Assembly: GCA_002067795.1 (NCBI GenBank)
Contig: MVQI01000046.1
Span: 1-64,000, forward strand
Direction: 5' to 3'
Origin: Methanosaeta sp. PtaB.Bin039
GTDB taxonomy: Archaea > Halobacteriota > Methanosarcinia > Methanotrichales > Methanotrichaceae
Length of the DNA: 64,000 nucleotides
The position numbers and the translations under genes were made by a program. Below, piece by piece: positions 21,780-41,929 of the stretch. The first letter of the stretch is position 1. Each line of letters starts with the position of its first letter. Below the pieces are notes generated by a model, which saw only the letters and a program-made list of their open reading frames with translations, was not told where the DNA came from and ran no database searches.

Positions 21780-22934
21780 TCAGAGAGCTTCCCTGGAAAA
21801 CGGGCTTGGCAAAAGCTCGGCAGCCGTAGCCAGGACCGCCCGGCCATCCCGGTTGACCATCACTACCTCGATATCTGAGCCGAACTCGACAAGCATCTGC
21901 CTGCAGATTCCGCAGGGGGTGATCGGCTCTTCGGTATCCCCGACGACTGCCAGTGCTGCCATCTCACGCTCTCCAGAGGAGATCGCCTTTATGACAGCCG
22001 CCCTCTCAGCACAGATCCCCGCACCAGAGGATGCGTTCTCCACGTTTCCAGCCGTGTATATGCGGCCGCTGCCTGCCAGAAGCGCTGCTCCGACCCGAAA
22101 ACCAGAGTAAGGGGCATAGGCCTCCTGCAGCGCACCTCGCGCTGCGGAGATCAGCTCGTCGCGGCCGCCCTGGTATGGACGCATCCCTCCTCGCAAGACC
22201 CCTATGTACATGCACTCCTGCGGCGGGATGCTGGGGATGCAGGAGGCCTCCTCGTCGGTCAGCCGGACCGGGGCTCCTCTGATCATCACTGCCGGTATCC
22301 CCTCATCCCCTTCTCCCATCACGATCTGGGCGGCGGAGACCAGGTTGTCTGCCACTGCCTTTCTGGTTATCTTCAGCTCCCGGCCGAAGAGATCTCTCTG
22401 GCCGCGGGCGTCCTCCACCGGTTCGAGACCTGCGCAGGCCAGGGCTACACCAACGCAGCCAAGCCGGAGCGGATGGGTGCGGCTGTCTCCGATTATCACG
22501 GCCACCCGCTTTCCTTTGCTCAGGCGCTCCCGCAGGGCCTGGGCAGAGCGGCAGGGGTTCTTTGGAAGCAGGACCACGCAATCATGGGGGGCGTTGGACC
22601 TGTCGAGACCGGCGTTGGGGAAGAGAAAACCGTCCTTCAATGTCAGGACGACCCCCGGAATTCCCCCGATAAGCTCGTCTGACTCTTGGAGGATCATCTC
22701 CATCTCGGCCGGATCTTTGCAGTAGCGACGGGCAAGCGTCTCTGCCCGCCTTGTGGGGACGACTCCTTTGAGGTCCACCACGCTTCCTTCGGCCGTTGCA
22801 AGCGCGCTCTCCGAGATCACCAGCACATCACCGTCCTGCAGGCACAGGCCAGCCTCGGCAAGCCCCTTCTCAACAACCTCTGCCAGGTCGTCTCCCACTC
22901 TGATAAGACCGGTCTTGATTCCCAGTACCTGCAA
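21780..22934 (-). CDS. Fused F420-0:gamma-glutamyl ligase and cytidine deaminase
   Basis: 384 residues as one uninterrupted frame. Residues 1 to about 245 are CofE, which adds glutamates to coenzyme F420-0: LGIKTGLIRVGDDL, VVISES-type DVLVISESAL, VIIGDSRTHPLRLGCVGVA, GEGDEGIPAVMIRG. Residues about 255-384 are a cytidine deaminase: AYAPYSGFRVGAAL, ICAERAAVIKA with the zinc ligand and catalytic Glu, and TPCGICRQML with the second and third zinc ligands. Both active sites look intact. The start is TTG 22934, with GGGGG upstream, 14 bases after the DHPS homologue, so the pair is an operon. Confidence 0.88.
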   Translation of the reverse strand: MQVLGIKTGLIRVGDDLAEVVEKGLAEAGLCLQDGDVLVISESALATAEGSVVDLKGVVPTRRAETLARRYCKDPAEMEMILQESDELIGGIPGVVLTLKDGFLFPNAGLDRSNAPHDCVVLLPKNPCRSAQALRERLSKGKRVAVIIGDSRTHPLRLGCVGVALACAGLEPVEDARGQRDLFGRELKITRKAVADNLVSAAQIVMGEGDEGIPAVMIRGAPVRLTDEEASCIPSIPPQECMYIGVLRGGMRPYQGGRDELISAARGALQEAYAPYSGFRVGAALLAGSGRIYTAGNVENASSGAGICAERAAVIKAISSGEREMAALAVVGDTEEPITPCGICRQMLVEFGSDIEVVMVNRDGRAVLATAAELLPSPFSREAL

Positions 22935-22948
22935 TTAGCATCTTCCCC

Positions 22949-24187
22949 CTATGCTTCCCTCTCAAGGCAAAATCGCCGCACGTCGTCGTCCCGGCTTAGG
23001 GCAGCCTCTATCTTCTCTGCGACGGATGGCAGCCGGAATGGCTGTCGCTTCAGCTTTCTGATCAGGCCAGCCATCTGGGCGACGGACCCGAATATCAGGG
23101 CGCGGTCGGCTGAAGGGTCGCAGCGAAGCGCCGACCTCGGCACCGCTGCGTCGCCTCCTCTGGCAAGCATCTCCTGCTTGATGACCAGTGCTTCCATCGG
23201 GGTTATGCCCTGAATCAGAAGTACGCGGAAGGCCATCTTGGCGCCAAGGATATCTGCGGCGTCTGAGCCAGCTCCATACCGGCGCAGGGTCTGCATGCTG
23301 TCATTTGGATGGCCGGCTCTTGCCAGCAGCTCAACCTCTATATCACCCTTTCCGGATGTGGCAGGAACGCCTCTGACAGCCTCGGCCATGCGAACTGCAT
23401 GAACAGTGGGCCCGACGTCGTGGGTCCTCACAATGTGGCTGCCATTGTATACGGCCAGAGCGGCGGCGGCCACCGATCCGGCCAGGCGGTCTGCCGGATC
23501 GGCCAGTCCCAGTACGTGTCCGATGAAGGACTTGCGGGAGACGGCTGCTACGACCGGCCGGTTCAGAGAGCGCAGCCTGCAAAGTCCGCTCAAGATGGCC
23601 AGGTCGTGCAGGTGGCTCTTCTCCTCGGTCCAGCGACCAATCCCAGGGTCGACAGATATGCGATGGCGGTCCACGCCAGCCATCTCAGCCTCCTCGATCT
23701 TCTGCCCCAGCCGCGATACTATCTCTCCCATCTCCAGCAGGTCGCCGGGACGCTGCCCAGACGCCATGATGATGAGAGAGCCGCCGGCATCTGCCACAGC
23801 GCCAGCCATCTCCGGGTCTGAGAGGCAGGAGACGTCGTTTATGCCAGCCGCTCCTGCTGCGAGGGCCTCTTTGGCTATCGATGCCCGCTGGGTGTCCACC
23901 GATACGGGCAGGTCTGTGTCGTCGATGAGGCGGACAAGGGCCGGAAAGAGCCTCTTTCTCTCGGTGTCCTCGGATATGGCTGGGGAGCCGGGGGCTGTCG
24001 AGACAGCTCCGACATCCAGCAGGTCTGCTCCCTCCTCTCCCATGCGGCAGGCCAGAGCCAGCAGACGGTCTGGCGTGGCCACCGATCCCTTGTAAAAGGA
24101 CTCCTCGCTCAGGTTTATGACCCCCATCATCCGGACAGGATGAATGTCCCCCAGCCTTAAAATCCCGAAAGAGCCCTCTACCGCCAT
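22949..24187 (-). CDS. Dihydropteroate synthase homologue (methanopterin pathway type)
   Basis: 412 residues. The N-terminal 270 residues follow the DHPS/pterin-binding barrel: MMGVINLSEESFYKGS, EEGADLLDVGAVSTAP, VDTQRASIAKEAL, INDVSCL, SVDPGIGRW, SRKSFIGHVLG, IVRTHDV. The C-terminal 140 residues are an extra helical domain seen in the archaeal DHPS-related family. In methanogens these homologues are candidates for joining the pterin to the ribosylaminobenzene unit of tetrahydromethanopterin. The neighbouring cofE domain (F420) suits a C1-cofactor operon. Start ATG 24187 has AGAGGCG upstream. Confidence 0.8.
   Translation of the reverse strand: MAVEGSFGILRLGDIHPVRMMGVINLSEESFYKGSVATPDRLLALACRMGEEGADLLDVGAVSTAPGSPAISEDTERKRLFPALVRLIDDTDLPVSVDTQRASIAKEALAAGAAGINDVSCLSDPEMAGAVADAGGSLIIMASGQRPGDLLEMGEIVSRLGQKIEEAEMAGVDRHRISVDPGIGRWTEEKSHLHDLAILSGLCRLRSLNRPVVAAVSRKSFIGHVLGLADPADRLAGSVAAAALAVYNGSHIVRTHDVGPTVHAVRMAEAVRGVPATSGKGDIEVELLARAGHPNDSMQTLRRYGAGSDAADILGAKMAFRVLLIQGITPMEALVIKQEMLARGGDAAVPRSALRCDPSADRALIFGSVAQMAGLIRKLKRQPFRLPSVAEKIEAALSRDDDVRRFCLEREA

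Positions 24188-30568: not shown

Positions 30569-41929
<11,361 letters not shown>

Follow-up and report, generated by a model that had tools for sequence, protein, structure and literature searches.

The Fusion Gene and Its Surroundings

What does a protein do that is half CofE-family ligase and half cytidine deaminase, and why are its two halves joined? The question is raised by a 64,000-nt stretch of DNA (positions 1 to 64,000 of contig MVQI01000046.1, assembly GCA_002067795.1; hereafter the window) from Methanosaeta sp. PtaB.Bin039, which belongs to the Methanothrix group of abundant aceticlastic methanogens. A preliminary description of the locus, made from the sequence itself, had named the protein an F420 gamma-glutamyl ligase fused to a cytidine deaminase and had suggested that the deaminase might act on a pterin- or flavin-type amine. 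We consider another reading quite probable as a whole: the ligase half, which we call LIG2, would be a dihydrofolate synthase that arose by a switch of substrate, and the C-terminal half a normal cytidine deaminase.

The fusion is a single uninterrupted minus-strand frame at exactly 21780–22934 (384 aa, TTG start, stop included); a plus-strand reading of this interval was ruled out, as stops interrupt the frame. The preliminary description was right that a full CofE-family domain is joined here to a full cytidine deaminase in one frame. Both halves score above their Pfam cut-offs and those of the NCBIfam models TIGR01916 and TIGR01354, with the Pfam matches F420_ligase (PF01996) at residues 5–220 (254 bits) and dCMP_cyt_deam_1 at residues 260–354 (59 bits). 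The LIG2 domain, a CofE-family gamma-glutamyl ligase paralogue, spans residues 1–249 (22188–22934, minus strand) and ends with an ECMY-type motif that is typical of LIG2 proteins, fused or not; among the matches listed, unfused orthologues mostly align to query residues ~245–253 at most. The junction at residues 250–257 (22164–22187, minus strand) differs in length by only a few residues in an alignment of 35 fusion proteins, from which a 36th frame (half of a frame-shifted copy) was left out. It leads into the cytidine deaminase domain at residues 258–384 (21783–22163, minus strand), with NVENA at 297–301, CAE at 308–310, and PCGIC at 340–344. An internal start that would yield a separate deaminase was also considered, at the in-frame ATG of residue 251 that follows GAGGAGGG in the window, and was rejected; this start is unconserved, because no other printed row of the fusion alignment has Met there.

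The upstream partner noted in the preliminary description is a folP-like gene for dihydropteroate synthase (DHPS; 22949–24187, minus strand, 412 aa), 14 bp upstream of the fusion on the same strand. A possible ribosome-binding site, AGGGGG at 22945–22950 on the minus strand, overlaps the folP stop and lies 10 nt before the TTG. The DHPS domain proper takes up residues ~20–270 and is followed by a C-terminal extension of ~140 residues (22949–23380) that matches no listed Pfam family; DHPS frames of ~400 aa are also found in sister families, and frames of ~270–310 aa in others. Farther along, the window holds a plus-strand open frame of 3786 aa at 30569–41929.

The Ligase Half Belongs to a Paralogue Clade

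The fused ligase is a member of a distinct paralogue clade, LIG2, to which the CofE of Archaeoglobus does not belong. The source genome encodes a second, canonical CofE on contig C11, adjoining CofC (TIGR03552, 152 bits; cut-off 105), and this protein scores above the cut-offs of both TIGR01916 (275 bits) and NF009809 (298 bits). The fused ligase scores 208.5 bits with TIGR01916 (cofE), above the cut-off of 180.65, and 208.9 bits with NF009809, below the cut-off of 274. With TIGR04132 (“folate metabolism ligase”), whose cut-off is 350, it scores 119.6 bits, four unfused LIG2 proteins score 89–116.5, and two canonical CofE proteins 68–73. All five LIG2 proteins scanned pass TIGR01916, so LIG2 genes are likely labelled as F420 ligases in many genomes. 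A fold search with Foldseek matched the fused ligase to 2phn (E 3e-21); the predicted structure of the fusion (pLDDT 77.8, pTM 0.69) was used for fold matches only, because its active-site loops are of low confidence.

Among the matches listed from 294 genomes across the phylum, unfused LIG2 orthologues (43–58% identity, usually ~245–285 residues) occur widely, both in sister families within the class and in families beyond these, and many other genomes have a single CofE only, at ~35–45% identity to the query. In a tree of 102 rows, built by a quick method with no bootstrap, Archaeoglobus CofE falls among the 31 canonical rows, and 69 of the 70 rows first called LIG2 fall on the opposite side of a branch with SH-aLRT 99. 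The 70th (G190/L087), a long branch among the canonical rows whose C-terminus is also canonical, was dropped as a LIG2 protein.

Has the substrate pocket changed along with the clade? In structures of the Archaeoglobus enzyme (AfCofE), the F420 ring has F92 behind it and G153–C155 in front, with R234 of the partner subunit above (PMC10861534). The fused ligase is without these ring-pocket residues (R234 being mapped by counting along L103, a close AfCofE relative, and not by structure), and the rest of the clade resembles it. At the F92 position, 63 of 68 LIG2 rows have Gly, whereas 30 of 31 canonical rows have F, I, or V; the G153 position is Thr in 65 of 68 and Gly in 31 of 31; and the R154 position, Arg in every canonical row (31/31), is Arg in no LIG2 row (0/68; His or Gln in 63). 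In canonical C-termini, the residue matching R234 is the Arg of a Y-R or F-R-like pair, and this region carries the ECMY-type motif in 68 of 68 LIG2 and 0 of 31 canonical rows. The acidic core is retained, with D150, D181, D196, and E208 present in all rows (68/68 and 31/31) and D109 in 67/68 LIG2 and 31/31 canonical rows, the exception probably being a frame-shifted copy (G010). Several of these conserved acidic residues we take to bind metal or nucleotide. As far as residues can tell, this is the pattern of an enzyme that has kept its chemistry and changed the ring it would bind.

LIG2 Accompanies Folate Genes and Excludes FolC

With which genes does LIG2 travel? Unfused copies accompany glyA, folD, folP, metF, purH, or the gene for a 5-FCL/PurN protein. 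The order is glyA, folD, folP, LIG2 at one locus (L078); folD, 5-FCL/PurN protein, AICAR transformylase, folP, LIG2 at another (L089); and ThiC-family gene, AICAR transformylase, folP, LIG2 at a third (L080). In L075, from family f2 of the same class, glyA, folD, and folP are followed by a 203-aa gene, a metF-like gene, a thiC-like gene, and LIG2; the counterpart of the 203-aa gene in L071 is a DUF5981 methylene-H4F reductase C-terminal protein. In three genomes with no DHPS match above cut-off, LIG2 is preceded by glyA and folD (G157 and G318) or followed by purH (G198), and the divergent LIG2 genes of L082 and L083 have a fumarase/aspartase-family lyase and a GTPase nearby. Across the 46 genomes of our panel (described below) that have both LIG2 and DHPS, the two genes are same-strand neighbors in 32, lie on the same strand within 16 kb in 11, are far apart in 1, and fall on different contigs in 2. 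LIG2 is thus a COG1478/PF01996 protein inside the folate cluster of genomes that lack FolC, the setting by which a FolC2-like protein is recognized. A 2022 study of Methanosarcinaceae assigned a MetF-MetV-FolP-FolD-GlyA-PurN cluster to tetrahydrofolate anabolism; CofE goes unmentioned in the available text of that study, which also describes ANME-2c genomes without FolP and FolD (PMC9012536).

Two kinds of gene in these clusters deserve separate mention. ThiC-family genes (L075 6525–7772; L080 6309–7529) lie beside LIG2 or AICAR transformylase and may serve to synthesize a precursor of thiamine or some other ring compound. The 387-aa protein of L089 (6061–7224) combines a 5-formyltetrahydrofolate cyclo-ligase domain with a PurN domain.

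The panel comprised 75 hand-chosen genomes, 49 with LIG2 and 26 without. DHPS was found above cut-off in 46 of the 49 LIG2 genomes and in 7 of the 26 others. FolC passed its cut-off in none of the 49 and in 6 of the 26, and these 6 all belong to the 7 genomes that have DHPS but no LIG2. When FolC is tested against LIG2 in the 53 genomes with DHPS, Fisher's test gives p = 3e-7, a value that serves as description rather than proof because related genomes are non-independent and the FolC genomes come mostly from one group. FolD follows LIG2 as well, at 33 of 35 genomes with LIG2 vs. 7 of 26 without (in a 61-genome part of the panel); it was not found in G116 and G189, though both have LIG2 and DHPS. 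Panel genomes without DHPS and FolD are also without LIG2 (e.g., G058, G068, and most of family f6). The three genomes with LIG2 and no DHPS above cut-off (3/49; G157, G198, and G318) are drafts of 81–92% completeness. In G258 (L088 and contig C7), DHPS is present and neither FolC nor LIG2 was found, and another dihydrofolate synthase may remain to be found there. G027 and G042 are without DHPS, LIG2, and cytidine deaminase and keep FolD; either a single-locus gap or uptake of folate would explain this.

In methanogens that use folate, DHPS and FolD are present, as is GlyA in the clusters that were read, but FolC is absent; therefore, their dihydrofolate step lacked a gene. Because the F420 pocket is lost, and because LIG2 lies in folate clusters, follows DHPS, and never occurs with FolC in the panel, it most likely serves these methanogens as dihydrofolate synthase, working, by analogy, like chlamydial FolC2. 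The likeness is one of working and not of model assignment, because LIG2 falls below the TIGR04132 cut-off. Chlamydial CT611, of the CofE family, is reported to complement an Escherichia coli folC mutant (PMC1971073), and a Lactobacillus FolC2 is likewise placed in COG1478 (PMC5061717). LIG2 would then be an NTP-dependent gamma-glutamyl ligase of the CofE family with a switched substrate, most likely attaching L-glutamate to the dihydropteroate made by the neighboring folP product and possibly adding further glutamates. Non-orthologous replacement of the absent FolC would be the simplest account. AfCofE is described as forming an NTP-dependent acyl phosphate that glutamate attacks (PMC10861534), and by analogy LIG2 would convert the carboxylate to an acyl phosphate, which L-glutamate would then attack. 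If the proposed role is true, LIG2 fills the dihydrofolate gap of folate-using methanogens, and in many other methanogens the unfused form may supply the step so far missing from folate synthesis.

The Deaminase Half Is Predicted to Be an Ordinary Cytidine Deaminase

The C-terminal half scores 133.7 bits with TIGR01354 (cytidine deaminase, tetrameric type), above the cut-off of 113.65; we preferred this model to PF00383, which also catches dCMP-deaminase-type proteins. All zinc-site residues are present, as the preliminary description had stated: Cys308, Glu310, Cys341, and Cys344 are invariant in 35 of 35 aligned fusions, as are F279, N297, E299, and N300. The NxENA and PYSxFxVGA motifs, which presumably have a role in substrate binding, are retained in the same 35. 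The closest PDB relatives by sequence are the mouse, Burkholderia, and Bacillus cytidine deaminases, and the same group is recovered by fold (Foldseek). Structural alignment to the tetrameric enzymes (mouse 1ZAB/2FR5, Bacillus subtilis 1JTK) gives ~47–50% identity, with all site residues shared; the tetrameric cytidine deaminase is a separate protein, whereas the fused deaminase is the C-terminal domain of a longer chain.

In the source genome, no other cytidine deaminase was found at the TIGR01354 cut-off. Among the panel genomes, a cytidine deaminase above cut-off is present in 12 of the 14 from the family, each time in the fusion, and outside the family in 5 haloarchaea only. Since the fused copy is the family's only recognizable cytidine deaminase and its site is intact, it is expected to be an ordinary zinc enzyme acting on cytidine or deoxycytidine, which it would convert to uridine or deoxyuridine.

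The same genome has a second deaminase fusion (L003 1489–2643; G000:C16:22997–24151), in which a cytidine-deaminase-like domain that has lost the zinc motifs (CAE, PCxxC) follows a family-3 extracellular solute-binding domain. Matches in similar-sized frames occur in other family genomes, and the protein is perhaps a ligand-sensing relic.

Conservation of the Fusion and the Meaning of the Joining

How far is the fusion conserved? Conservation among relatives, which the preliminary description had singled out as support for a function, is extensive: the fusion is present in 44 of 50 genomes of the Methanothrix family (which is also the order) and in 11 of 11 genera searched. It is full length or nearly so in 42 of these genomes, cut by a contig end in 1 (G038), and split by a frameshift in 1 (G010; L050, ~1504), where the genome is nearly finished and the split, which lies in a homopolymer of C, is probably a sequencing error. 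The six family genomes without it are G019, G021, G027, G034, G036 (fragments only), and G042, and no unfused LIG2 was seen in any of the 50. folP lies directly upstream in 47 of the 48 fusion loci fetched (some of which are pairs of records from one genome); the 48th (L026) starts too close to a contig end. Outside the family, none of the matches listed from the 294 genomes across the phylum extends past query residue 267, and all 13 loci of a species-level scan (13/13) come from close relatives only, labelled Methanothrix, Methanosaeta, Methanotrichaceae, Methanosarcinales, or uncultured archaeon. The folP–LIG2 pair would be the older unit, to whose 3′ end the deaminase was joined in the ancestor of the Methanothrix family.

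Why, then, are the halves joined? No metabolite shared by the ligase and the deaminase is evident. Thymidylate synthesis draws on folate, and dUMP can be supplied by way of deamination. The source genome has a ThyA-family match and no ThyX, and a PF00265 search found no thymidine kinase in 14 family genomes, so a simple deoxyuridine-to-dTMP link is unsupported. A deaminase serving thymidylate supply is weakened as an explanation by these results, PF00265 being the only nucleoside-kinase search.

The chances are only slightly below even that both activities are as proposed and that their joining is meaningless, a stop codon having been lost between operon neighbors and the resulting fusion having persisted by drift. 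The lack of a shared metabolite and of a thymidine kinase points this way, as does oligomeric state: canonical CofE is described as a dimer (PMC10861534) and the deaminase type is a tetramer by the name of its model, so there is no obvious channel. A meaningless joining sits less easily with a fusion that recurs in all genera searched, with no unfused LIG2 in the family, and with a junction whose length is kept within a few residues. Chance fusion kept by descent and functional coupling appear about equally likely. The fuller claim, that LIG2, as the second CofE of Methanosarcinia and Methanomicrobia-type families, is the long-missing archaeal dihydrofolate synthase under a mistaken F420 label, and also that the Methanothrix fusion is a true bifunctional enzyme coupling cytidine deamination and folate synthesis both physically and through regulation, is rather unlikely in its entirety, and we advance it tentatively; if true, the coupling ties pyrimidine supply to one-carbon supply. 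The fusion itself would be a conserved bond of folate synthesis and pyrimidine deamination.

Other Explanations of the Locus

Could LIG2 instead serve as an additional F420 gamma-glutamyl ligase, extending the F420 tail, with the deaminase as a passenger? Both the Pfam F420_ligase and the TIGR01916 cut-offs are passed, and an extra ligase is conceivable because tail lengths vary with cytochromes, at four to five glutamates in methanogens that have them and two to three in those without, as given in PMC8498797. We nevertheless judge this improbable, and with it the preliminary naming of the fused ligase as an F420 ligase. The ring-pocket residues are replaced clade-wide; LIG2 sits in folate and not cof clusters, follows DHPS, and excludes FolC; and the canonical enzyme, which in the source genome adjoins CofC, is already there beside LIG2 in 24 of the 25 LIG2 genomes searched (the 25th, G157, has fragments at contig ends).

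It is decidedly improbable that LIG2 glutamylates another archaeal C1 carrier or cofactor, such as tetrahydromethanopterin/sarcinapterin or methanofuran. Methanofuran does carry gamma-glutamates. These organisms are also described as using tetrahydromethanopterin-type carriers (PMC9012536), but LIG2 tracks DHPS and FolD rather than methanogenesis genes, and the tetrahydrosarcinapterin alpha-ligase belongs to another family, the glutathione-synthetase homologues, according to a title cited in PMC8498797.

A pterin, flavin, or deazaflavin amine as the substrate of the deaminase half, as the preliminary description had proposed, is very improbable. The suggestion came from the neighborhood, with DHPS upstream and a ligase in the same chain; the DHPS partner does matter as a functional clue, but its link is to folate. 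The half passes TIGR01354, its zinc residues and both motifs are invariant, its best solved relatives are cytidine deaminases, with blasticidin S deaminases matching far less well, and the genome has no second cytidine deaminase above cut-off. Lastly, although the window comes from a draft genome of 82 contigs, the chance that the fusion is an assembly or sequencing artefact is negligible, since its recurrence across 44 genomes, among them G046 and G013 (one contig each) and G015 (two contigs), excludes an error of one assembly and the other doubt raised at the outset, occurrence in this assembly only.

Relation to Known Systems

The recruitment of CofE-family ligases is a known pattern; what is new is the domain fusion and the probable recruitment in a new clade. 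A literature search returned no report of the fusion or of a role for LIG2 in methanogens, and an earlier published prediction for archaea is possible. It returned no paper linking Methanothrix with cytidine deaminase and, for FolC2/COG1478 with Methanosarcina, bacterial work only. The one paper pairing CofE, F420, and cytidine deaminase was set aside, as the deaminase there is a base-editing tool in Mycetohabitans.

A close parallel is chlamydial FolC2 (CT611, COG1478), described as a CofE-family ligase that was recruited to folate synthesis and whose gene lies among folate genes in genomes without FolC (PMC1971073). Unlike it, LIG2 forms an archaeal clade, coexists with a true CofE, scores below the TIGR04132 cut-off, and is fused to a deaminase in one family; the two are likened by description and not by sequence. 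With Archaeoglobus CofE (AF_2256; 2G9I, 2PHN, 7ULD), LIG2 shares fold, family, and the acidic core D109/D150/D181/D196/E208, but differs in the replaced F92, G153, R154, and R234 region, in its separate clade, and in its gene context. Mycobacterial FbiB also carries a second enzyme, of the nitroreductase family, at the C-terminus of a CofE domain (PMC8498797); its partner acts on the same cofactor, whereas here the partner is a cytidine deaminase and the ligase is putatively of folate type. Haloarchaea offer a further archaeal case in which these two folate steps are fused, as FolC-FolP frames made, unlike in Methanothrix, with a true FolC and without LIG2: in 5 of 5 panel haloarchaea (labelled from genome pattern and a Haloferax control), the FolC and DHPS matches share one frame of 866–981 aa.
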